Below are positions 7,357 to 32,360 of a stretch of DNA of 64,000 nucleotides, in pieces; position 1 is the first letter of the stretch, and every line of letters starts with the position of its first letter. Origin of the DNA: Nitrospira sp. (GTDB lineage: Bacteria > Nitrospirota > Nitrospiria > Nitrospirales > Nitrospiraceae). The notes under the pieces are model-generated. The model saw only the letters and a program-made list of their open reading frames with translations, did not search any database and was not told the origin of the DNA. Location: positions 496,001 through 560,000 of the forward strand of contig BQWY01000001.1 of NCBI GenBank assembly GCA_036984305.1, read 5' to 3'. Both the position numbers and the translations under genes were made by a program.

Positions 7357-8425
7357 CGTCGTTGTTGGCGGTGCCCACGCGGCTCGGGACCGGGAGGGTC
7401 CGATCCGATGGCGTAACGGAAGGATGCCAGCGTAACCCCAGGTCCAAAATGCGCTGCAGGAGCGTCTTGTAGGAGAGACCGGCCGCCTCGGCTGAGTCGG
7501 CGAAATCCTCCCCCTTGGCGATCTGAGGGTTCGGATTTGCTTCCAGCACGTACACGAGCCCCGATGCCGCGAGCCGCAAGTCGATCCGAGCGTAGCCGCT
7601 GAGCCCCAGACAGCGGTACACCCGCTTGGCCAACTGCTGAATCGAGACGCGCTGTTCGTTCGTCAGGTCGGCCACGTCCGACGACACGTCATATTTCTTC
7701 TGATAGCGGTCGCACCACTTGACCCGGGCGGTGGCGACACGTCGAGCGTCGTCCGGCAATTGGCTCAAGTCGAGTTCCCAGACAGGAAACACTCGGAGCC
7801 GTTGGTTCCCCAGTACCCCAACATAGAGTTCCCTGCCTTCGATAAAACGTTCGACCAAGGCGCCGGTGCCGACGTTTTGATGCACGAATCTGATCCGTTC
7901 CTGGAGCTTGTCGTCGTCCTCGACGATCGAGGCCTGCGAGATGCCCAATGAGGCCTCCTCCGACACGGACTTCACGATCAAGGGGAACGGGAAGTCCTTC
8001 GGGCGTTTGACGGATCGGCCCAATGGTACCGTGATGAATTCGGGAATCGGAATATGATGGTAATAGAGGATCTTGTGGGCCACACCCTTGTCGCGGGCCA
8101 ACATCAGGCCTCGAGGGTTGCATCCGGTGTAGGGAACTTTCAAGAGTTCCAGATACGACACCACATTTTGGTCGTAGACGGCCGTGCCGCTGAACTCTTC
8201 CAAGAGATTGAAGGCGATATGCGGTTTCCATTCGTCTACAGCGGTCCTAATGACGCCCAAATCGTCACGTACGCCGAGTGCTCGCACATCATGTCCCACG
8301 GTGCGCAGCGTGGTGACGACGTCGTACTCGGTCCGCCATTCGGCCTTGCTGGTATCGATGCCCGTGACCATGTCGGGCGGCACCAGGTCTTCGTGCATGA
8401 GCGCGAGGATTCGGAGGGGTTTCAT
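7343..8425 (-). CDS. ATP-grasp ligase, D-alanine-D-alanine ligase-like
   Basis: This 360-residue protein has an ATP-grasp fold related to D-Ala-D-Ala ligase. The N-terminal domain holds KPHIAFNLLEEF and the substrate-loop-like TGCNPRGLMLARDKG. The ATP-binding part has PLIVKSVSEEAS and a specificity segment around GALVERFIEGREL. The Mg2+-binding end reads YVLEANPNPQIA. Genuine Ddl enzymes usually end EVNTxPG at this point, so the amino-acid substrate may differ and I do not call it ddl. It starts inside the stop of the upstream zinc-peptidase gene (ATGA, 8422-8425). The two are therefore almost certainly translated together and may act on the same peptide or amino-acid substrate. Confidence 0.82.
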   Translation of the reverse strand: MKPLRILALMHEDLVPPDMVTGIDTSKAEWRTEYDVVTTLRTVGHDVRALGVRDDLGVIRTAVDEWKPHIAFNLLEEFSGTAVYDQNVVSYLELLKVPYTGCNPRGLMLARDKGVAHKILYYHHIPIPEFITVPLGRSVKRPKDFPFPLIVKSVSEEASLGISQASIVEDDDKLQERIRFVHQNVGTGALVERFIEGRELYVGVLGNQRLRVFPVWELDLSQLPDDARRVATARVKWCDRYQKKYDVSSDVADLTNEQRVSIQQLAKRVYRCLGLSGYARIDLRLAASGLVYVLEANPNPQIAKGEDFADSAEAAGLSYKTLLQRILDLGLRWHPSVTPSDRTLPVPSRVGTANNDANSA

Positions 8426-9483
8426 AGGGCCACGCGGTGGTGTCCTCCGTGGAGGTAGTTCATCGTTTGGACGGTCAGCAGAATGGTCACGTCCAATTTG
8501 GCCCTGGCCTCGGGAATCGCAAGACGAAGTTCCTGTTCACGACAGCACGACAGGATGTCGTCGAACACGCGATCAATGGTGTACTGGTACTCACCCGTCC
8601 AGCTCGCGACCTCGCGGCGCACCTCGGCACGAATACGCGAAAGAAACTGCACGGCAGTCGGGTTTTCCTGATAAGCCGGTCCGTCGGAAAAAATGCGCCG
8701 GAGATCGCGATCGTAGATGGTCGGGTGGGGCGACCCGTAGTGTTCTTGCTTGCGGGCATAGTGTTCACGCAAGGTACGGCGGAGGCGGGGCAGCGTATCG
8801 ACCCGCTGTTTCGTGGTGACCGCCGGCCGGGCGCCGGCGAGCGCCGTCATGATCCCGTCCATGTATTCCAGTTTCTTCATGGCCGGCCAGCCTGCATAGC
8901 GTTCGCGCCATTGTGAGTCGGGATTGAGCCAGACGGCAAACGTTTCTGCAAAGTCCTCGTCGGGGTGGCTCTGTGCGTACCACATGTCCAGATGCTGGAC
9001 ATAGTTCTGGCTGTACGGTTTGGGTTTATAAAACGTTGGATAGGGTTGACTGGAGCTCCCGAAGAGCAGCTGGCGCTCACGGCGGCGGCGCAGACGGTAC
9101 GCATTATCGATGGCGTGGCCGGCCTCGTGTCGAAGGATCCGCAGACACCACTCCGGCGTGCCGCCTTCCACCTCCAACATTTGGGCCTGCTCTAACTTGG
9201 CCAGGCGGGGGTGGGCCAGATAGAAGGGGACGGCGATACCCGGGACCCCGTCGGGAGAAAACCACTCTTCGGACAGCCAGAAATGGGGCCGGCACACCAA
9301 GCCACGTGCAGCCAATTCCTCCTGCAAGCGGCGAATGGGTTCCGCGGCGGAACTTTGCTCGATCGTCAGGCGGAGATCGCAGAGCCGTAAGTCGAGCAAT
9401 CGTTCATCGGACCAGTCGGCCCATTCGGGTTCCGAACGCGACGGCGTTTCGGACGCGGCATCTGAGGGGTGAGACGGGTTCAT
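8422..9483 (-). CDS. Putative zinc-binding metallopeptidase (Peptidase_Mx-like)
   Basis: This 353-residue soluble protein has no signal peptide. It contains HEAGH at residues 119-123 (zinc ligands His119 and His123, catalytic Glu120) and a downstream DEDFAETFA segment (Glu180), which probably gives the third ligand. This arrangement fits the family annotated as putative zinc-binding metallopeptidase, for which no substrate is established to my knowledge. The N-terminal ~35 residues are acidic and probably disordered. Its stop overlaps the start of the ATP-grasp ligase gene by 4 bp, a fixed operon-like pair. A protease plus a peptide-bond-forming enzyme suggests peptide modification, but that is inference. 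Confidence 0.75.
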   Translation of the reverse strand: MNPSHPSDAASETPSRSEPEWADWSDERLLDLRLCDLRLTIEQSSAAEPIRRLQEELAARGLVCRPHFWLSEEWFSPDGVPGIAVPFYLAHPRLAKLEQAQMLEVEGGTPEWCLRILRHEAGHAIDNAYRLRRRRERQLLFGSSSQPYPTFYKPKPYSQNYVQHLDMWYAQSHPDEDFAETFAVWLNPDSQWRERYAGWPAMKKLEYMDGIMTALAGARPAVTTKQRVDTLPRLRRTLREHYARKQEHYGSPHPTIYDRDLRRIFSDGPAYQENPTAVQFLSRIRAEVRREVASWTGEYQYTIDRVFDDILSCCREQELRLAIPEARAKLDVTILLTVQTMNYLHGGHHRVAL

Positions 9484-9549
9484 GTCCTGGGTCCCACTCT
9501 CGGCGCAATCCTCCCCGCCCGCCGGATGAACCGTGCACGACGCATAGAC

Positions 9550-10470
9550 CTAGGCCGCGTGGGTCGGTGTCGGAGCTGAGTTCCACCCCGCCACATGGAG
9601 CGGTGGCGGCGTCCCCTGCTTCGGTTCGCCCCAGTAGATCGTCCGATGCGGAAACGGAATCTCAATCCCTTTGGCATCAAAGGTCTTCTTGATTCGTCGA
9701 TTCATTTCGCGTCCGACGCGCCACTGCTGACAAGGATTGGTCTTGATTCGGCACTTGATGATCACCGCCGAGTCCGCGAACTGGTCAACCCCCAGCATCT
9801 CGAGCGGCTCGAGGATGTCGGCCGCAAACTTAGCGTCACCACGCAGCTCCTCCGCGATGTCCTTCAAGACGGCCATGACCTCATCGACGTCTTCTCGATA
9901 CGCGACCCCGACGTCGAACAAATAGTAGGAATACAGCTTTGTCATGTTCTTCACCCGGTCGATCACGCCGTTGGGCACGACATGGACGTTGCCCGACAGG
10001 TCCCGGAGCGTAATCGTGCGGAGTTTGACCTCCTCGACCAATCCACCGACCCCAGCGACCTCCACGACGTCCCCGACGCGTACGGAATCCTCCAGAAGAA
10101 TGAAGAATCCCGAAATCACATCTTTCACGAGACTTTGTCCCCCGAACCCGATCGCCAAGCCGCCAAGTCCCGCCGCAGCCAAGAGCGGTTTGAGATCGAC
10201 GCCCACTTCAGACAGGATCATCATGGTGCCGATTGCCAGAATGAGGACGCGGGCCACGTCCCGGACCACGTGTGTCAACGTATCCACGCGTTTCCGCTGC
10301 CCTGGGCTGTGCAAGGCGCCCTCGTACAGTGTTCGGAACCGAAGGACCAACCGCTTGACCAGGGACAGCAGTATCGCCATGGCGATGAGGATGATCATCA
10401 TGCGCAATCCACTGGTCGATAGCCAGAGGATCGACAGGTCCAAGACGCGGCTCACAGGCGAAGACGACAT
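9550..10470 (-). CDS. Mechanosensitive ion channel, MscS family
   Basis: This 306-residue inner-membrane channel has three N-terminal transmembrane segments. The last is the glycine/alanine-rich pore helix (LAAAGLGGLAIGFGGQSLVKDVISGFFIL), followed by the beta domain (VGDVVEVAGVGGLVEEVKLRTITLRD, then VPNG) and the alpha/beta C-terminal cage. Members open under membrane tension and release osmolytes after hypo-osmotic shock. GGGAGG precedes the ATG. It lies between the zinc-peptidase gene and treZ on the same strand and is one of three MscS-type genes within 7 kb. Confidence 0.93.
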   Translation of the reverse strand: MSSSPVSRVLDLSILWLSTSGLRMMIILIAMAILLSLVKRLVLRFRTLYEGALHSPGQRKRVDTLTHVVRDVARVLILAIGTMMILSEVGVDLKPLLAAAGLGGLAIGFGGQSLVKDVISGFFILLEDSVRVGDVVEVAGVGGLVEEVKLRTITLRDLSGNVHVVPNGVIDRVKNMTKLYSYYLFDVGVAYREDVDEVMAVLKDIAEELRGDAKFAADILEPLEMLGVDQFADSAVIIKCRIKTNPCQQWRVGREMNRRIKKTFDAKGIEIPFPHRTIYWGEPKQGTPPPLHVAGWNSAPTPTHAA

Positions 10471-19923: not shown

Positions 19924-22900
19924 TTACGCTTCTGTGGATTGCTCAACAGGAGATTCGGGAGCGATCTGACGGCGGGGCGATTTTGAGGGCCGCTTGGGCA
20001 CCCGCCCTTCGATCCACTCGTACAGAACCGGGAGGACGACCAGGGTCAAGAGGGTCGAACTCGTCAGGCCGCCAATGACCACCACGGCGAGCGGTCGCTG
20101 GACCTCAGACCCGATGCCGTGCGCCAATGCCATGGGCACAAGTCCCAACAGGGCGACGAGCGCGGTCATCAGCACCGGCCGTAGTCGCAAGAGGCAGCCT
20201 TCTACGACGGCCTGGTTGACATCCATGCCTTCTCGGCGTAGGGCGTTCATATAGGAGACCAGCACGATGCCGTTGAGGACGGCGACGCCGAACAGGTTGA
20301 TGAATCCAACCGACGCGGGGACGCTGAGGTACTCGCCGGTCACCCAGAGCGCCACGATTCCCCCGATGAGGGCGAACGGCAGGTTGAGAATAATCAAGAG
20401 CGCTTGTTGAAGAGAGGAAAACGAGGTGAACAATAAAATGAAAATGACGACGATCGTCAGCGGCACGATCACTTGAAGCCGGCCCATCGCCCGCTGCATG
20501 TTCTCAAAGGACCCCCCCCAGTCAATCGTATAGCCCAGCGGCAGCGGAACTTCATTGGCGATACGAGTCCTGGCTTCCGCCACGATACTGCCGATGTCCC
20601 GTCCATGCGTATTGAAGCCTACCGACAGATATCGCTGGAGGCCCTCGCGGCTGATGCGACCGGGGCCCTCGTGCATCCGAATGGTGCCGAGTTCGCTCAG
20701 AGGGACGAGTGCCCCGTCCGCCGCGGTCAGCCGGATGTTCCCAATGGCTTGAATGCTGTTTCGATCCCGCTCGGGATAACGAACGAATAGATCGAATCGC
20801 CGGTGTCCTTCATAGACTCGGGTCGCGCTTTGGCCGCCAATCGCGGTGGCGATGACCTCTCGCACGTCCGCGACGTTAATGCCGTATCGGGCAATTCTCG
20901 CCCGATCGATGTCGACGGTCAGATACGGCTGCCCGAAGAGTTGCTCGAGCTTCACGTCCTTGACTCCACGGATAGTGGACAGCACGCCGGCGAGTTCATC
21001 TCCCTTCTGACGAAGGATGTCGAGATCCGGCCCGATCAGCTTGGCCGTGGCTTCCGTGCGCACGCCGGAAATCAACTCATCGACGCGCTGCTGAATCGGC
21101 TGGCTCAACAGGAAGCTGGCGCCCGGGACTCGCGCGAGCCGCTCGCGAATCTTTTCTTTCAGCTCCGGCATGGTGGAGGCGCTGGTCCAGGTGTCCATCG
21201 GACGCAGCACCACGACCGGGTCGCTCTCGTTCGGCTCTTGCGGATCGTTTCCCAGTTCCGTCCGGCCGATTTTCGAGACCACTCGCTCGACTTCGGGAAA
21301 CCCCATGACGGCCCGCTGCATCTCCCGTTCGATTTTGATCGATTGGTCCAACGAGATGCTGGGCAGTCGGATCGTTTGCGGGGCCAAACTGCCTTCGTTC
21401 AGGATCGGAATAAACTCGGTGCCCAAAAAGGGGAACAGTACGATGCTGCCGGCTAGGAGTCCTAGGGCCGATCCGACGACGAGCAGGCGGCGACACAAGG
21501 CCCACTGCAGAACGGGCAAATAGACTCGCTTCGCCCATTGCAAAACCACAGGATCCGCCGCGTGACCCCCTCTCAGCGCGAGTGCGCACAATACCGGAGA
21601 GAGAGTGAGCGACAGCAGGAGGGAAACCGACAGGGCGATCATGATGGTATAGGCCATCGGCTTGAACATCTTCCCTTCCATGCCCTGCAGCGACAACAGA
21701 GGGAGAAATACGATCGTAATAATCACGATGCCGAACACCACCGGGCGGGAGACCTCGCGGGCTGCGCGGAGCACCACGGCGCTGCGCGAGAGACCGTCCT
21801 CTCGGCGCACATTCAAGTGCCGATGGATGTTTTCCACCATGACGACCGACCCGTCCACCACCATGCCGATGGCAATGGTTAATCCACCCAGCGACATCAG
21901 ATTGGCTGTCAAACCGGCTTGCCCCATCAGCAGAAAGGTTGCGAAGGGGGTCAGCACCAACGTGCCCGTGACAATCAAGGCGCTGCGTGTGTCCCCAAGA
22001 AACACGAAGAGGACGATGACCACCAGGACGATGCCCTCACCCAACGCCCGATACACGGTCATGAGCGCGGCGGAAATCAGTTCGAGCCGATCGTAAAAGG
22101 GGACGATCCGCCAGCCGGGAGGAAGCAAGCCGCTCTTTTGAATTTCGGTGACCTTTCGCTTGATGGCCTCGACGACCTGACTCGCATTTCCGCCCCTGAG
22201 CATGAGCACGATGCCCGTGACGACTTCATGGTCGCCGTTCAGGAGGGCGGCCCCGTGGCGGACGGCATGGCCAATGCGAGCTTGTGCAACGTCGTGGACG
22301 AGCACGGGGGTTCCACCCTCCTCCTTCACCACGATGGCCTCGATGTCGTTTAGGCTTTGGATCAACCCTTCGCCTCGGATGATATATTTCTCGGCATGCT
22401 TTTCGAGAATGTTGCCGGCGGCGTTGGCATTGTTATTGGAGATCGCGGTAAAGACGTCGTGCAGAGTCAGGTCGTACTTACGCAGAAGGTCCGGATCCAC
22501 GATGACTTGGTACTGCTTGACAAATCCCCCCAAGGAATTGATGTCGATGACTTCCGGCACGCTCTTCAAAATCGGGCGTATCAGCCAATCCTGGATGGTG
22601 CGCTGTTCGATCAATTGCCGCTCCATGGCTGCCGGGTTGGCGTTGGGCGGGACCGGCGCCTCCAAATAGTATTGATAGACCTCGCCCAAGCCGGTGCTGT
22701 TCGGCATCATCATGGGCTCGGAACCGGACGGGAGGAATTCACGCACCTCGATCAATCGTTCCAGCACCAGCTGGCGTGCCAGATTGATGTCCATCTCGTC
22801 ATCAAAGACGATGGTAATCAGAGACAGGCCGACCTTCGTCAGGGAGCGCAAATGCGTCAGATGGGGGACCCCCATGACTTGCTGTTCGATGGGGTAGGTG

Positions 22901-23094
22901 ACGAGCCGCTCGACCTCTTCCGGCGAGAGGCCTGGCGCCTTCGTGACCACTTGGACCAGCACGCTGGTCACATCCGGAAACGCGTCGATCGGAATGGTGC
23001 GAAACGCATACACGCCTGCCACCCCGAGCATCGCCATGAAGGTGAGGATGAGAAAGGGGCGACGCAGCGAAAACTCGATGAGGGCGTTAACCAT
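19924..23094 (-). CDS. czcA: Heavy-metal efflux RND permease, CzcA type
   Basis: This 1056-residue inner-membrane RND pump has twelve TM helices in two repeats, each with a large periplasmic loop. It drives metal-cation export by proton antiport through a tripartite complex. The TM4 signature AIGMVVDGSVVMVENIHRHL contains the Asp and Glu of the HME-RND proton relay. The motif LGNDPQEPNESDPVVVLRP resembles CzcA/CnrA (divalent Zn, Co, Ni) more than CusA (monovalent Cu, Ag), so a divalent substrate is favoured but not proven. It begins 3 bp after the adaptor gene and is last in the unit small protein-CzcC-CzcB-CzcA. Confidence 0.93.
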   Translation of the reverse strand: MVNALIEFSLRRPFLILTFMAMLGVAGVYAFRTIPIDAFPDVTSVLVQVVTKAPGLSPEEVERLVTYPIEQQVMGVPHLTHLRSLTKVGLSLITIVFDDEMDINLARQLVLERLIEVREFLPSGSEPMMMPNSTGLGEVYQYYLEAPVPPNANPAAMERQLIEQRTIQDWLIRPILKSVPEVIDINSLGGFVKQYQVIVDPDLLRKYDLTLHDVFTAISNNNANAAGNILEKHAEKYIIRGEGLIQSLNDIEAIVVKEEGGTPVLVHDVAQARIGHAVRHGAALLNGDHEVVTGIVLMLRGGNASQVVEAIKRKVTEIQKSGLLPPGWRIVPFYDRLELISAALMTVYRALGEGIVLVVIVLFVFLGDTRSALIVTGTLVLTPFATFLLMGQAGLTANLMSLGGLTIAIGMVVDGSVVMVENIHRHLNVRREDGLSRSAVVLRAAREVSRPVVFGIVIITIVFLPLLSLQGMEGKMFKPMAYTIMIALSVSLLLSLTLSPVLCALALRGGHAADPVVLQWAKRVYLPVLQWALCRRLLVVGSALGLLAGSIVLFPFLGTEFIPILNEGSLAPQTIRLPSISLDQSIKIEREMQRAVMGFPEVERVVSKIGRTELGNDPQEPNESDPVVVLRPMDTWTSASTMPELKEKIRERLARVPGASFLLSQPIQQRVDELISGVRTEATAKLIGPDLDILRQKGDELAGVLSTIRGVKDVKLEQLFGQPYLTVDIDRARIARYGINVADVREVIATAIGGQSATRVYEGHRRFDLFVRYPERDRNSIQAIGNIRLTAADGALVPLSELGTIRMHEGPGRISREGLQRYLSVGFNTHGRDIGSIVAEARTRIANEVPLPLGYTIDWGGSFENMQRAMGRLQVIVPLTIVVIFILLFTSFSSLQQALLIILNLPFALIGGIVALWVTGEYLSVPASVGFINLFGVAVLNGIVLVSYMNALRREGMDVNQAVVEGCLLRLRPVLMTALVALLGLVPMALAHGIGSEVQRPLAVVVIGGLTSSTLLTLVVLPVLYEWIEGRVPKRPSKSPRRQIAPESPVEQSTEA

Positions 23095-24361: not shown

Positions 24362-25642
24362 TTATAGTGTGCCCCCCAAGGCCCGCTCCAAACGGGTTAG
24401 GGCAAGCGAAAGTCCGTATTTCGCCAAATTATAATCTATGACGATTTGACGCTGAACGCGCTGAGCATCGAGGACGTCCAACAAGCTCGAGGCGCCCTGG
24501 CGAAAACTCAATTGGGCGATCCGAAGCGCTTCGTCGGCCTGTTTCATGAGCCCTCGCTCGTAGACGACAATCAATTCCTGGGCTGTTTCCGCCTCACGGG
24601 CGTGTTGGGTGATTTCACGATGCAGATCGTTTCGTAGACGAAGCAATTCCGCTTCTTCGCTTCGTTGCGTGCCGAGTGCCGCGGCGATATGTCCCTGCTG
24701 GCGATACCAAATGGGGGTAGGGACACTGACCCCCCCGACGACGGCCTCTCGGCCGACGTCGCGCGCGTATCCACCGAAGAATGTGATGTTCGGCACTCTG
24801 GCGTGTCGCTCTTTGGAGACGGTGTATTCAGCCTGTTCCACGAGCTTTTCCTGGCGTTGAATTGCGGGGTGTTGCGCGAGGCTACGGGCGGCGATACGCT
24901 CCGGGATGAGCTGGTCCGAATAGATCCTGAACTGCCCCAAGACCCTATATCGGGTCCCCAATGCACCGGCCGTCAAGGTATCCAGGGCGACCAGCCGGAT
25001 TCGCACGACGTTGGTCGCGCGCATGAGTTCCTGTTTCGCCTTGAGCACCTCCACCTCGGCCTTGACGGCTTCGAATTGCGCGCCTTCGCCGGAGCGCACT
25101 CTGGCTCTGACGATGCGCGCCACCTCCTCGACGGTGTCCACATTCTGCTGAAACAACTCAACGGTCCGCTCCGCCAGCAGAAGGTCATAAAAGGCCGTGC
25201 GGACATCCGCGATCAAATTGAGCTTGACGTCATCAAGCCCGACGGTGGCGCTACGCAGGCCGGCTTCGGCGGCGTCGTGACGGGCGGACCGCTTCCCCGT
25301 CCATTCGATCGGTTGCGTGACGATGAGTCCCGTCTCATTGATTCTCGTCCCGTTACTGGGGTCGCGAAGAGCTGCATTGGCCGTTTGGTAGGTAATCGTC
25401 GGGTTCAAATAGGCGTCGGCTGACACGCGGTCACCTTCGCGCTGATCAATGACCCCGCGCGCGCCCTCGATGGTCGGATGGCGCTGAAGCGCCAAGTCGA
25501 GGATCGTGTCCAGCGTGTATACGGGTAACTCCCCCTTCGCCGGAGGGGGAACGGGAAGCGGATCTTGGGCCGAGGCCCATCGGCTGCACGGGCACCATAT
25601 AATAACAACCAGGATCAATATGTACCAAGGACGAGCCGGCAT
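24362..25642 (-). CDS. czcC: Outer-membrane efflux channel, TolC family (CzcC-like)
   Basis: This ~426-residue outer-membrane channel subunit has a signal peptide (MPARPWYILILVVIIWCP...ASA, cleavage near residue 26). It then has two TolC-type repeats of long amphipathic helices with the usual PTIEGARG and GEGAQFEAVKAEVEVLKAKQEL segments and C-terminal SLLDVLDAQRVQ. ATG 25642 is preferred over TTG 25663 because AGGAGGAGG lies seven bases upstream. It sits 16 bp before the adaptor gene and completes a CzcCBA tripartite exporter. No metal-specific residues can be read from the channel subunit. Confidence 0.9.
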   Translation of the reverse strand: MPARPWYILILVVIIWCPCSRWASAQDPLPVPPPAKGELPVYTLDTILDLALQRHPTIEGARGVIDQREGDRVSADAYLNPTITYQTANAALRDPSNGTRINETGLIVTQPIEWTGKRSARHDAAEAGLRSATVGLDDVKLNLIADVRTAFYDLLLAERTVELFQQNVDTVEEVARIVRARVRSGEGAQFEAVKAEVEVLKAKQELMRATNVVRIRLVALDTLTAGALGTRYRVLGQFRIYSDQLIPERIAARSLAQHPAIQRQEKLVEQAEYTVSKERHARVPNITFFGGYARDVGREAVVGGVSVPTPIWYRQQGHIAAALGTQRSEEAELLRLRNDLHREITQHAREAETAQELIVVYERGLMKQADEALRIAQLSFRQGASSLLDVLDAQRVQRQIVIDYNLAKYGLSLALTRLERALGGTL

Positions 25643-25716
25643 GGCTTGCCTCCTCCTGAACAATTCGAATCCGAGTCCGTCCGACGGACGGGTGGAACTA
25701 GCGGATCGCGATCGCG

Positions 25717-26296: not shown

Positions 26297-27937
26297 TCAA
26301 CGAGCGACTGGCGTTCGCAAATCTCGATACTTGATTCGGTCGGCCGGATCGGCATCCACGTCGATGCCACCTGCAGTCGGGGGCTTCTCGAGGTCGACAT
26401 ATTGTAACGTCCCGAACGGTTGAATTTCGTCGTCCGTGGGCAATTGGCCGCGGGTCCATCCTCCCCCGAGTGCTCGGACCAGGGCCACGGACGATCTCAG
26501 GAGATCAGCCTTGATTTGTGCCAAGTCAATACGCGATTGGAGCACCGCGACCTGGGCATAAATCAGCTCGAGGCTCGAGGCCAACCCGCCTTGGTACAGT
26601 TCCATCGTCAAATTTTGCGTCTTCAGCGTGGCGCCGACCGTCGCGTCTTGCCGATCCACGGCCGTGGTGAGCTGCTTCGTCAAGCTCAAGTTGTTTTCGA
26701 CTTCCCGGAAGGCGTTGAGAACCGTCGATCGATATCGATCCTCCATTTCTCGATACGCCGCCCAAGACTTTTGTAGTTGAGCACGCCGGTACCCACCCTG
26801 GAACGCGGGCAAGGCCACGCTGGCCCCATAGGACCAGAAGCTGGTCGCGAGATTCGCGATTTCGATGGCGCTGAAGTTGACGTCGAGGATGCCTCCGTCT
26901 GCTCCGAACCGTACATCGGGGAAAAACGCGGCGCGAGCAATGCCGATCGCCCGGTTCGCCTGGGCCATCCGGCGCTCCATCCCGGCGACGTCCGGCCGGC
27001 GTTCGAGCAGGGTCGACGGGATCGTCTGTGGAATTGTGAACTTGGCCACGGTGATGTCCTCGGCCGGGCTGATCGTAAACCCCGCCGGGGCCATGTTCAC
27101 GAGCGCGGCGATGGTTTGCTCCGTGACCTGCCGCTGGCCCTGAACCTGGGCCAGCTTCGTTTCCGTGCTGAAGAGCAGCGATTCCACGCGGGCCACGTCG
27201 AGGGCCGATGCGATCGCTCCGGCAAACTGCGTCTTCACGAGGGCGAGGGATTCCCGGTACAGGGTGATCGATTGGGTATAGATGGCAATCTGCGCGTCGT
27301 ACCCGCGCAAGGTGAAGTAGTTCGCCGCGATTTCTGCCTGTAGGCTCAGGCGGGCGAGACCCCAGTCCGCCGCTCGTTCCTGGGCTCGGTAGGTCTCCAC
27401 GCGCGTCGCGTTGCGAATTGCCGACCAGAAGTCCGGCTCCCAGGATGCCAGCCCGGCACCGGCCGCCAAAGACCCGGTCAACGGAGTATCAGGGTCTCGC
27501 AAAAAGGAATCGACATGGTACCGACTTTGAGTGGCTTTCCCGCCCAATCCGAGTTGCGGAATTCGCTGGGACCGTACCTGCATCATCGTATCGCGCGCCT
27601 GGACGAACCGCTCCGCCGCCGCCTGAAGTTCGGGATTCGCCGCCATGGCCTGTTCGACGATTCTGTTGAGGGTCGGGTCGTCGTACAGTTCCCACCAATT
27701 GGTGCGAAGTTCGGCGTCGGAAGGGTTGGCTTCAACGAAGGGGCTCGCCCCATGCCAGGAGGCGGGAACGACGTAGTCAGGCGGCTCATAGGGAGGCGCC
27801 AAATCCACGTGCGGCAGCCAATCACGATTACATCCCGGCACAAGCACGATCACCAGCAGCAACAGACAACACCGTCCACTCTGGCTGATCCGCAGGCGCA
27901 CGCTGTCTTTTGGGGTTCGTGAGGAGAGGTCGCTCAC
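26297..27937 (-). CDS. RND efflux outer-membrane lipoprotein (NodT/OprM type)
   Basis: This 546-residue outer-membrane channel has a lipobox (VLVPGC, cysteine ~36), typical of the NodT/OprM branch. Two OEP repeats follow, with characteristic VDLAPPYEPP..VPASW near the N-terminus, WWELYDDPTLNRIVEQAMAANPELQAAAERF, DVARVESLLFSTETKLAQVQGQR and RRPDVAGMERRMAQANRAIGIARAAFFPDV. The frame starts at GTG 27937; no better start is apparent. It follows the adaptor gene after 13 bp and is the last gene of the second RND operon. The outer face may serve multidrug or solvent export; the substrate is unknown. Confidence 0.92.
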   Translation of the reverse strand: MSDLSSRTPKDSVRLRISQSGRCCLLLLVIVLVPGCNRDWLPHVDLAPPYEPPDYVVPASWHGASPFVEANPSDAELRTNWWELYDDPTLNRIVEQAMAANPELQAAAERFVQARDTMMQVRSQRIPQLGLGGKATQSRYHVDSFLRDPDTPLTGSLAAGAGLASWEPDFWSAIRNATRVETYRAQERAADWGLARLSLQAEIAANYFTLRGYDAQIAIYTQSITLYRESLALVKTQFAGAIASALDVARVESLLFSTETKLAQVQGQRQVTEQTIAALVNMAPAGFTISPAEDITVAKFTIPQTIPSTLLERRPDVAGMERRMAQANRAIGIARAAFFPDVRFGADGGILDVNFSAIEIANLATSFWSYGASVALPAFQGGYRRAQLQKSWAAYREMEDRYRSTVLNAFREVENNLSLTKQLTTAVDRQDATVGATLKTQNLTMELYQGGLASSLELIYAQVAVLQSRIDLAQIKADLLRSSVALVRALGGGWTRGQLPTDDEIQPFGTLQYVDLEKPPTAGGIDVDADPADRIKYRDLRTPVAR

Positions 27938-27950
27938 AGATCACCAGCGG

Positions 27951-29162
27951 TCACTTGGCTGAGGCTTCCTTTGACCCGGACGTGTGGTCGGGCTCGGGAC
28001 TGGTGAGGAGGTCGTACCCCTTCGACGGCGTGACGACCCGCACACTGTCACCTTCGAGCAAAGCAACACTGGGGTTGTTCACGATGCGGTCAGTCGAAGA
28101 GACCCCTTCGGCCACCTCGACCGTGCTATCCATGAGCTTGCTCACGGTGATCGGTTGGAAATGGATGTGGTCATCCTCCGTGACCAGCGCGACTTGCGTT
28201 CCATGCTCCTGAAACACCAACGCGGTGGATGGGATGGTGAAGACCTTTCTGTCGACCGGTGCTGTGAGATGCACCTGGGCGAAAGATCCCGGCCACAGAG
28301 CCCTGTCCTCGTTGTCGATGGTAAAGACAGTGACGGCGGTTCGGGTGCTTACATTAAATCCTTTGGCGACGGTCAAAAACTTGGCGGTAAATCGACGGTT
28401 GGGAAGCTGTGGTGCCGTCACTTCCGCCGTCAGGCCCGGTTGCAGGAAGGGCCCAAACGTCTCCGGCACGTTCACAAAGAGACGCAGGGTGTCGACGACG
28501 GCCACGGTGAAGAGGTTCGTGATGCCCCCGGGAGTGTTGAGTTGGCCCTCCTTGCTGACCAAGTCGCCGACGTTGATATTGCGCTGAATCACCATCCCCT
28601 CAAAGGGCGCGACGATCTTCTTGAAACCGATGAAGGCTTCAATGTTTCGCACTTTCTGTTCCGCCGCCTTCACGACCGCCTCCTGCGCCTGCATGTGTTT
28701 TTCTTGTACCGTAATCGCCTGCTCGGAGACGGCATGGGATTGGCGCATCGCCTGATAGCGCTTGGCGGTGACTACGGCAAGCGCATACCGGGCCCGTTCC
28801 GATTCGAGATCGGCTTTGGCCTGGCTGTATTCGGCGTCGAGGTCCGGCGTATTGATCTCGGCCAGAATATCGCCTTTCTTCACTTCGTCGCCGTAGTCCT
28901 TGTACCACATCTTTACGTAACCCGTGACGCGCGCGTAGATCGGCGCCTCGTACCACCCTACGATGTTGCCGGGAAGCGTGATGGTCTCGCTCGGTGGCAC
29001 CGGCTTGGGGTTCACAACGGCCACGGTTTGGACCGCGTTCTCGTGCGTCTGCTCGCGCAGCAGCGCGGCATCGCTCCCGCTGAGGTAGGTCCGGTAGCCG
29101 ATGTAGACGGCGACAAGCGCAATGATGATCAACGCAATGCGTGTTCCTTTGGGTGATTTCAT
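27951..29162 (-). CDS. RND efflux periplasmic adaptor (HlyD/AcrA family)
   Basis: About 403 residues from ATG 29162, which overlaps the stop of the upstream permease half by 4 bp (ATGA). A single N-terminal membrane anchor (TRIALIIIALVAVYIGYRTYL) without lipobox is followed by a lipoyl half (APIYARVTGYVKMWYKDYGDEVKKGD), a coiled-coil hairpin (residues ~120-190, with SEQAITVQEKHMQAQEAVVKAAEQKV), the second lipoyl half (APFEGMVIQRNINVGDLV), and beta-barrel and membrane-proximal domains. An open frame continues upstream to 29537, but that part is a shadow of the permease. It couples the split RND permease to the NodT-type channel. Confidence 0.93.
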   Translation of the reverse strand: MKSPKGTRIALIIIALVAVYIGYRTYLSGSDAALLREQTHENAVQTVAVVNPKPVPPSETITLPGNIVGWYEAPIYARVTGYVKMWYKDYGDEVKKGDILAEINTPDLDAEYSQAKADLESERARYALAVVTAKRYQAMRQSHAVSEQAITVQEKHMQAQEAVVKAAEQKVRNIEAFIGFKKIVAPFEGMVIQRNINVGDLVSKEGQLNTPGGITNLFTVAVVDTLRLFVNVPETFGPFLQPGLTAEVTAPQLPNRRFTAKFLTVAKGFNVSTRTAVTVFTIDNEDRALWPGSFAQVHLTAPVDRKVFTIPSTALVFQEHGTQVALVTEDDHIHFQPITVSKLMDSTVEVAEGVSSTDRIVNNPSVALLEGDSVRVVTPSKGYDLLTSPEPDHTSGSKEASAK

Positions 29163-30859
29163 GATGAGACCTGCCCCTTTGGCGGATGCGGTTTCCGCCC
29201 ATGGACAATCGCATACACACACGGCACGAATAAGAGAGTGAACACAGTGGCGAGGAGCAAGCCACCGATGACCGCACGCCCAAGCGGTGCGTTTTGAGAG
29301 TACCCGGTGGCCATGGGGACCATGCCGAGAATCATGGCTGAGGCCGTCATGAGCACCGGACGGAAGCGGGTTGTCCCGGCCTCGATGGCGGCCTTCACCG
29401 CGTCGCCATGTTCTTGAATGCGCTCGCGCGCGTAGGAGACGATCAAAATCGAATTGGCGGTGCCTGTCCCCATGGTCATAATGGCGCCCGTCAGCGCGGG
29501 TTCTGAAATCCGAGTATGGGTCACGAACAGCGACCACGCGATGCCGGCCAGTGCGCCGGGCAATGCCGTGATAATAATAAACGGATCCAACCAGGATTGG
29601 AAATTCACGACGATCAGCAGATAGACCAATATAATCGCCGCCAGCAGTCCGAAGATGAGTTCGCGGTAGGCATCGTACATCAGTGAGGCCTGGCCGTGAA
29701 TCTCCAGCGCCGCGCTTCGAGGCATTTCGGGTTCCATGTCCTTGGCGATTTTCTTCACGTCCGCCAGCACCCCTCCGAGATCGCGGCCTTCCGCGGACAC
29801 GTAGATGTCGAACAGCGGCATGATGTTGCCATGTGTGACCACGCCCGGCGTACCTTGCGCTTCGATCTGGGCCAGGTTGCCGAGAAGTTGAACGGCGGAA
29901 TCGCCCGAGCCATTGGTCGAAGCATCCACCGGAACGGTCTTCAGGCTGTTGATGCTGTTGATCTGTGGCTGTGGGGTATAGACGTTGATCAAGTAGGACA
30001 TGCCGGTGCTGGGATCCAGCCAGTAGATTTGGTCGACCTGTTGGCTTCCGGCCGTCGTCATGAGCAGGTTGTCGGCCATATCCTTCAAGGTCCGGTTGAC
30101 ACCAAATCCGAACGTTCGGTTGCCCTCCACCATGAGGGTAGGCGTGCGCATGGTCTGTTGGATGACGACGTCCACGGCCCCGGGGATTTCACGGAATTTC
30201 CCCAGCAATTTGCGAGCGAACTCGTAGTTGGGATACATGTCGGGGCCGTTGATCTGCACATCAATCGGCGCCGGTGCTCCGAAGTTGAGAATTTTCGCCG
30301 TGAGATCGGACGGCTGGAAGGTGAATTCGGTTCCCGGAAACCGCTCTTTCAATCCCTTGCGGAGCACGCGCCGAAAGTCCCAGACCGGCGACTTTTCGTT
30401 CTTGAGGAGGATCGTCAGATCGCAATCCTGTGAACCAATCGTGGGTGTTGGAATGAAGGCCAGGTTGTGCGGTCCGACCGGCAGCCCGCAATTACTGACA
30501 ATATTTTCGACCTGACCTGGCAGCAACTCCTCAATACTATTGGACACCAAGGTCGCGATGCGCGCCGACACCTCGATGCGCGTCCCGAGCGGCGCTCGCA
30601 GATGCATCTGGATGACCCCGGATCTGATCTCTGGGAAGTAGTCACGCCCGAGGAAGAAGAAGATACTGACGGAACACAGCGCGAAAGCCAGAGAGAACAC
30701 GACGAATGACCGGCGATGGGCGACCACTCGTTCCAGCAGCGATCCATACCGGTCTCGGGTCTGATTGAATCGGTGCTCGAAGCCCTGCTGGAACCGGACG
30801 AAGACGTTGCGCGAAACGGGCGCCCCCCCGTGTCCATCCGGACTAGGCGCTGGCGGCAT
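29159..30859 (-). CDS. RND efflux permease, C-terminal half (separate ORF)
   Basis: This 566-residue ORF corresponds to the second half of an AcrB-type RND permease. It has a ~45-residue N-terminal lead, TM7 (FVVFSLAFALCSVSIFFFLG), the second periplasmic loop with the FxPTxxxG-like VPVDAS/FIPTPTIG region, and TM8-12 (IAWSLFVTHTRISEPALTGAIMTMGTG, VLMTASAMILGMVPMA, VIGGLLLATVFTLLFVPCVYA). It begins at ATG 30859, 17 bp inside the end of the N-terminal half and in another frame, with GAGGAG seven bases upstream, so it can be initiated independently. The break lies in the cytoplasmic linker between TM6 and TM7. Either a real two-subunit permease or a frameshifted single gene is possible. Confidence 0.88.
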   Translation of the reverse strand: MPPAPSPDGHGGAPVSRNVFVRFQQGFEHRFNQTRDRYGSLLERVVAHRRSFVVFSLAFALCSVSIFFFLGRDYFPEIRSGVIQMHLRAPLGTRIEVSARIATLVSNSIEELLPGQVENIVSNCGLPVGPHNLAFIPTPTIGSQDCDLTILLKNEKSPVWDFRRVLRKGLKERFPGTEFTFQPSDLTAKILNFGAPAPIDVQINGPDMYPNYEFARKLLGKFREIPGAVDVVIQQTMRTPTLMVEGNRTFGFGVNRTLKDMADNLLMTTAGSQQVDQIYWLDPSTGMSYLINVYTPQPQINSINSLKTVPVDASTNGSGDSAVQLLGNLAQIEAQGTPGVVTHGNIMPLFDIYVSAEGRDLGGVLADVKKIAKDMEPEMPRSAALEIHGQASLMYDAYRELIFGLLAAIILVYLLIVVNFQSWLDPFIIITALPGALAGIAWSLFVTHTRISEPALTGAIMTMGTGTANSILIVSYARERIQEHGDAVKAAIEAGTTRFRPVLMTASAMILGMVPMATGYSQNAPLGRAVIGGLLLATVFTLLFVPCVYAIVHGRKPHPPKGQVSS

Positions 30860-32360
30860 GTGCAGACTCCTCGTTGTGGTGCCCCTTGAGTAGGTACTTG
30901 GCCATGGTCGGCACCAGCGTGCGCGACAGAATAAACGAGGCGAGCATGGCGAAGATCACGGCCTCCGCCATGGGCTTGAAGAGATAGCCGGCGACACCGC
31001 CGAGTTCGAAGAGCGGGAGCCATACGATCGCGATGCACAGGGTCGCCACGAAGGTCGGCACCACGATTTGGTTGGCGGCATCAACTATCGCGTCTTCGAG
31101 CGGCTTGCCCATTTCGATGTGGCGATCGATGTTCTCGATCATCACCGTCGCATCGTCGACCAGAATGCCAACGGCCAACGCCAATCCGCCCAGGGTCATG
31201 ACGTTGATGGTCTCACCGAGATAGTACAGACAAATGAGCGAGGTCAGGATCGACAGCGGGATCGAGGTCCAGACGATGAGTGTCGCACGCCATGAGCCGA
31301 GCAGCAACAGGACGATCAGTCCGACCAACGCGCCGGCCGACGCCATCTCGTGAACGACGTCCTTGATGGAATCCTTGACGAAGGTTGAGGCATCGTCGAG
31401 GAGCGTGATCTTCACTCCCTCCGGGACGATCTGCTCGATGCGTGGGATCATCTTCTTGATCCCATCGACCACCTCCAGGGTCGAGGCCTCCGTGCTTTTC
31501 ATCGCGACGAGAATGACGGTTTGTTTGCCTTTCACCAAGACGGCGTTCTGCTGAACCCGGCCCATGAGGCGGACCGTGGCGACGTCGCGCAAATAGATGT
31601 AGGCGTTGCCCTCCCGTTTGATCGGGATGTCGGCAAAATCGTCAATCTTCAGCGGTGAGGCATTCGTCTGCACGATCCAGTCGGTGCTCTTGATCTTGAC
31701 GTCGCCGGACGGCAGTACAAGATATTGCTGCATGAGCACTTTATGTACGTCGGATGGAGTGATGTTGCGCGCCAGGAGTTTTTGTTGATCGAGGTTGACC
31801 ATGACCTGCATGTCCTGCCCACCGTACGGATGTGGCAGAATTACCCCTGGGACCGTCACGAGCAAGGGGCGAATCCTCATGTACGCCAGGTTATAGAGCT
31901 CCGCCGGCGTCAACTCCTCTGAGCTGACTTGGAGCATGGCGACCGGGATGGAGGAGGGTGCCAGCCGCATGATCATGGGCGGAGAAATATCCGGCGGCAA
32001 CGCCTTGACGACGGTCTGCGCAATGGCGGTGATGTCCGCTTCGGCTCGACCGACGTCGACCTCATCTTGGAGAAAGATATTGGTGATGCTGATGCCGTAG
32101 TAGGAGTGGCTATGGATGTACTTGATGCCTTCCACAGTCGAGGTGAGAAAGCGCTCGAACAGATAGGTGATGCGCCCTTCTACCTTCTGGGGCAAAAGGC
32201 CAGCGTAGGCCCAGACCACGGAGGTAACGGGAATCGTGATGTTGGGAAATACGTCGGTCGGCATCTTATGGATCGTCATGCCTCCGAACACGAGGATGAG
32301 GATGGACATGACGACGAAGGTGTAGGGTCGTCGCAACGCGATCAGGACGAGTTGATTCAT
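30843..32360 (-). CDS. RND efflux permease, N-terminal half (separate ORF)
   Basis: This 505-residue ORF corresponds to TM1-TM6 of an RND permease: TM1 (YTFVVMSILILVFGGMTI), DVFPNITIPVTSV, the first periplasmic loop (~35-335), and TM2-6. The TM4 proton-relay motif AVGILVDDATVMIENIDRH carries the adjacent aspartates. It ends with TAG after ...HNEESAHAASA, just past TM6. The proton relay is therefore here, while TM10-11 partners lie in the following ORF. It is the first gene of the operon half1-half2-adaptor-channel. The upstream 568-bp region presumably holds the promoter, shared divergently with the ModA-like gene. Confidence 0.9.
   Translation of the reverse strand: MNQLVLIALRRPYTFVVMSILILVFGGMTIHKMPTDVFPNITIPVTSVVWAYAGLLPQKVEGRITYLFERFLTSTVEGIKYIHSHSYYGISITNIFLQDEVDVGRAEADITAIAQTVVKALPPDISPPMIMRLAPSSIPVAMLQVSSEELTPAELYNLAYMRIRPLLVTVPGVILPHPYGGQDMQVMVNLDQQKLLARNITPSDVHKVLMQQYLVLPSGDVKIKSTDWIVQTNASPLKIDDFADIPIKREGNAYIYLRDVATVRLMGRVQQNAVLVKGKQTVILVAMKSTEASTLEVVDGIKKMIPRIEQIVPEGVKITLLDDASTFVKDSIKDVVHEMASAGALVGLIVLLLLGSWRATLIVWTSIPLSILTSLICLYYLGETINVMTLGGLALAVGILVDDATVMIENIDRHIEMGKPLEDAIVDAANQIVVPTFVATLCIAIVWLPLFELGGVAGYLFKPMAEAVIFAMLASFILSRTLVPTMAKYLLKGHHNEESAHAASA

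Follow-up and report, generated by a model that had tools for sequence, protein, structure and literature searches.

The RND permeases of the AcrB/MexB/MdtB type (HAE-1) are single chains of about 1030-1050 residues. In the Nitrospira locus described here, by contrast, the two repeats of such a permease are encoded by separate genes. Homology over the full length, the Asp pair in TM4, and an operon with an adaptor and an outer-membrane channel are common to both, while the position of the TM10 Lys is occupied by Ala in the Nitrospira C half and in the fused members of its family, unlike in the AcrB type. A two-chain precedent exists in the superfamily, since the two 6-TM chains of SecD/SecF form one RND-type unit (PMC8277102). 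However, SecD/SecF is a protein-translocation accessory without an adaptor or outer-membrane channel, and the N half of the split permease matches SecD weakly (E 6e-4; 19 bits against a cut-off of 244), which places the pair outside SecD/SecF. The heterotrimeric pumps MdtBC and MuxBC also have more than one permease gene per operon. In these, two full-length permeases encoded by tandem genes share a trimer (PMC10872679), whereas each chain of the split permease corresponds to half a protomer. Coupled gene pairs with conserved overlapping stop and start codons, like the present pair, are collected in the GeneTack catalogue of frame transitions, although the term RND is absent from the main text of that paper (PMC3711429). 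No report of a split HAE- or HME-type permease was found in a literature search with incomplete coverage of subscription papers. A large recent survey of RND proteins dropped hits shorter than 852 aa (PMC10872679), so that half-length pumps would have been missed and left out of its counts. A natural two-chain RND pump of the drug/metal type would be a native system for learning how the repeats fold and find each other, and for asking how proton flow is coupled across a chain boundary. It would also exemplify a gene fission that has persisted through multiple genera, for which the fused sister genes serve as controls.

A tripartite RND operon with its permease in two genes

The window analysed here is a stretch of 64,000 nucleotides of a Nitrospira sp. 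contig. As shown in Table 1, it contains two overlapping minus-strand ORFs of 505 and 566 aa, which encode the two halves, N- and C-terminal, of one RND permease of the AcrB type, in place of the single 12-TM chain of about 1000 aa expected for an HAE-1-like permease. The initial annotation had read the two ORFs in this way, and their coordinates were as described there. The Pfam model ACR_tran (PF00873, 1021 positions) is covered completely across the two, by the N half at positions 4-498 (E 7e-117) and by the C half at positions 500-1021 (E 2e-71). Since the halves match adjoining parts of the model, they add up to a complete permease that is interrupted between the repeats. The boundary at 498/500 agrees with the break proposed initially, and the cut falls within the cytoplasmic linker that joins TM6 to TM7. 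The separate ATG, the GAGGAG and the 17-bp overlap claimed for the second ORF were all found in the sequence, the overlap being ATGCCGCCAGCGCCTAG in the window. The adaptor gene in turn overlaps the C-half stop codon, and the close coupling thus extends along the operon. The adaptor and the channel scored above the cut-offs of TIGR01730 and TIGR01845, and the order N half, C half, adaptor and channel is kept in the split loci and in most fused loci.

Table 1. Positions of the features, in the window or in the locus named
Feature	Position	Strand	Remarks
N-terminal half-permease gene, 505 aa	30843..32360	-	TM1-6 and first periplasmic porter region; TM4 Asp pair VDDATV
C-terminal half-permease gene, 566 aa	29159..30859	-	linker helix, TM7-12 and second periplasmic region
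17-bp overlap, C-half ATG to N-half TAG	30843..30859	-	C half in the +1 frame
GAGGAG, Shine-Dalgarno-like, 7 nt upstream of the C-half ATG	30867..30872	-	
Periplasmic adaptor (membrane fusion protein), 403 aa	27951..29162	-	4-bp overlap (ATGA) of its ATG with the C-half stop
NodT-type outer-membrane efflux channel	26297..27937	-	last gene of the conserved operon N-C-adaptor-channel
Tandem duplication of the N half only	L148:972-5218; L149:1042-4592; L176-L182		

The genome has roughly a dozen further full RND genes, and each of them is in an uninterrupted frame. One unsplit RND permease gene lies in the window itself (around 20011-23079), adjoining a second outer-membrane channel (24362-25663) which resembles the divalent-metal exporter component IhpA at a score below the cut-off.

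Conservation of the split in Nitrospirales

In 61 related genomes, the N and C halves have best homologues of 80-88% identity, which for the most part occupy frames of their own of about 500-570 aa. A relative of the C half at E<=1e-200 was found in 81 of the 235 genomes of the order. In 50 of the 235, the C half is a frame of its own, 564-598 aa in length, and these genomes represent 13 genera and 2 families by genus and family codes. Several of them are single-contig genomes. The complete genome of Nitrospira moscoviensis NSP M-1 (L074) carries the split, and the UBC2 chromosome (L073) belongs to the named set too. A split restricted to one strain was rejected, since the genomes of relatives are split too.

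A comparison of the junction covered 34 split sequences, none identical to another. Of these, 30 have an overlap of 17 bp and two have one of 32 bp, while the odd loci L090 and L046 differ; apart from these two, every sequence has its C half in the +1 frame. The window junction is unlike most in having the stop codon TAG rather than TGA, and in that its N tail carries an insert. Neither chance nor error accounts for a split that recurs with the same phase and the same overlap length in about 30 diverged homologues. The initial annotation had named uninterrupted close relatives together with a base error as evidence against a real split. The closest relatives, single-contig genomes among them, turned out to carry the split for the most part as well, with the phase unchanged.

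The dN/dS values of split pairs are 0.02-0.19 for both halves, and those of fused pairs span much the same range (0.02-0.15). Between the window and three relatives, the values are 0.08-0.11 for the N half and 0.09-0.11 for the C half. Judging from these substitution patterns, both halves behave like functional proteins, and purifying selection on them is as strong as in the unsplit relatives. With the split conserved and both halves under selection, the suggestion of a genuine two-subunit pump is well supported.

Duplicated N halves

Nine genomes with 4 genus codes have two N halves followed by one C half, or N1-N2-C (G002, G022, G124, G125, G181, G184, G185, G186, and G192). G124, G125, and G192 are single-contig assemblies. 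Where the N half is duplicated without a second C half, N1 remains an intact ORF. The five fixed differences between N1 and N2 in genus g6 are confined to residues 2-42, and the remainder is largely homogenised, as if by gene conversion (the N1/N2 pS is 0.02-0.10 within a genome, and pS is about 0.31-0.33 between genomes). In G002, the first N half has a tail of the window type and has lost its own C half, while the second N half is joined to the C half by TAATG. It is conceivable, if rather speculative, that the fission made RND permeases modular. N1 and N2 would then share one C half to give mixed or alternative protomers, that is, a half-exchangeable pump with tunable specificity. Two lineages have, near the N and C genes, a small ORF that looks PII-like (KMLIIVARDSML.., about 100-125 aa; L148:2672-3046 and L090:10035-10346).

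Probable fission and re-fusion

Fused homologues of 61-76% identity were found in Methylococcales, Nitrosomonadaceae, and Nitrospira paralogs. Of the 34 split sequences, 33 fall into one clade of 37 in the tree of 82 permeases, together with four fused genes. The SH-aLRT of the clade holding the window is 92 in this tree, against 18 in a second one, and the mixture-model tree places the window in a poorly resolved fork with the fused L087. Constraining the split sequences alone as one clade was rejected (p-AU 0.0052), which points to re-fusion. The re-fused L093, L094, and L140 retain an out-of-frame ATG at the homologous place. In the linker alignment, the fused sister L087 (CACAACGCGTCGCAGGCGCAGGAGCAC) and the split L131 (CACCATGTCGCAGCCGCATGAACAGCAC) show a net difference of 2 nt. 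This comparison suggests that a net loss of 2 nt created the ATG and the frame change together.

The trees fit one old fission by a small linker indel and about two re-fusions, with weak branch support for a single origin. The split of the window may have a separate origin, which is compatible with the tree, while the same ATG-to-stop arrangement, with its length and phase, argues for a common one. The re-fusions and the fused paralogs indicate that the split is dispensable for function; thus it could be tolerated rather than advantageous. In L080 (293-2686) and L153 (complement 7960-10353), a fused paralog adjoins the split operon. Its open frame of 822 aa spans the N half and only about 277 C-half residues; a truncated RND gene thus lies next to an intact split one.

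Translation at the junction and possible explanations

The predicted anti-Shine-Dalgarno pairing at the C-half ATG has a mean of -5.5 kcal/mol, compared with -3.0 kcal/mol for out-of-frame ATGs in the same N genes and -6.2 kcal/mol for the own starts of the N genes. The C-half start was taken as the best-pairing in-frame ATG near the stop codon, which slightly favours the value of -5.5, and most loci have just one candidate there. The SD-like sequence is weak at about 10 of the 34 split loci.

The locus is probably the result of an ancient, selectively maintained fission of a tripartite RND permease, with coupled translation and two chains assembling as one pump. An indel in the linker between TM6 and TM7 (net loss of about 2 nt) would have shifted the frame, so that the N half ended at a nearby TGA and a new ATG just upstream became the start of the C half, giving the 17-bp overlap. 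Ribosomes would finish the N half, terminate, and then initiate or re-initiate at the overlapping ATG, with help from the SD-like sequence that the N-half gene contains. This would yield two 6-TM polypeptides in coupled amounts. Within the membrane, the N and C chains may come together as one RND protomer, to which both contribute proton-relay residues, and three such pairs may form a trimer working with the co-encoded adaptor and outer-membrane channel.

Could the overlap be a site of programmed +1 ribosomal frameshifting, producing a single full-length permease alone or alongside the halves? Every overlap of 17 or 32 bp is in the +1 phase, the overlap is short and conserved, and frameshifting and coupling can co-occur at one site according to the GeneTack work (PMC3711429). 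However, no slippery heptamer or homopolymer common to the junctions was found in the 34 split sequences, where the last sense codon before the N-half stop is variable (GCA, GCC, GTT, CCA, GCT, CAG, ACA, and GAA). Covarying structure is almost absent from the junction RNA, with a compensatory change in 2 of 24 predicted pairs, and an SD sequence with an ATG suits a start codon. Moreover, the TAATG junction of G002 is in another phase, and an intact N half lacking its own C half is hard to explain if the product is one frameshifted chain. Frameshifting therefore seems improbable, and two translationally coupled polypeptides are likelier, since there is no conserved slippery site. The chance that the split is a pseudogene or a sequencing or assembly error is negligible. 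A frame change close to seven consecutive G is what an error typically looks like, but the run lies beyond the TAG stop codon, as the initial annotation had pointed out, and the same split recurs in dozens of independent assemblies, complete genomes included. The dN/dS values far under 1 in both halves do not suit a pseudogene. Conservation and dN/dS thus reject this explanation.

Coupled translation and assembly of the two chains as one pump do not require that the split be beneficial. As a variant compatible with the fission favoured above, the split may be neutral, persisting because few mutations reverse it. About two re-fusions without a visible change in selection are in line with this, as is the topologically self-contained nature of each half. 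On the other hand, the overlap length, phase, and start codon have been kept across a large synonymous divergence, and N halves have been duplicated alone more than once, hinting at a use of modularity. I consider neutrality a serious possibility, with the odds somewhat against it.

Relay residues, structure models, and host range

By homology, the split permease is probably a proton-driven tripartite exporter. The first Asp of TM4 (D402, in VDDATV) is invariant among 25 aligned members. The position of the TM10 relay Lys, which is K940 in AcrB, was assigned via motif alignment and is Ala (A468, in GTGTANSIL) in 25 of 25 members, split and fused. With the CusA/CzcA model TIGR00914, the halves score 231 and 195 bits against a cut-off of 701 that was set for a full-length chain. 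The curated multidrug cut-offs, also set for full-length chains, are likewise not reached by the halves. In a Foldseek search, the AlphaFold model of the N half resembles AcrB, OqxB, and CusA across about 500 residues. What Foldseek confirmed with the AlphaFold models is the RND fold only, the C-half model being of low confidence (mean pLDDT 63); thus, the structural inference rests on homology. A link of the permease family to metals is possible. At more than 60% identity, the family is found mostly in nitrifiers (Nitrospira and Nitrosomonadaceae) and methanotrophs. In the fused members from Nitrosomonadaceae, the cytoplasmic linker is rich in His, with up to 10 such residues; the fused relatives considered for the host range and the His-rich linker were L115, L118, L125, and L136.
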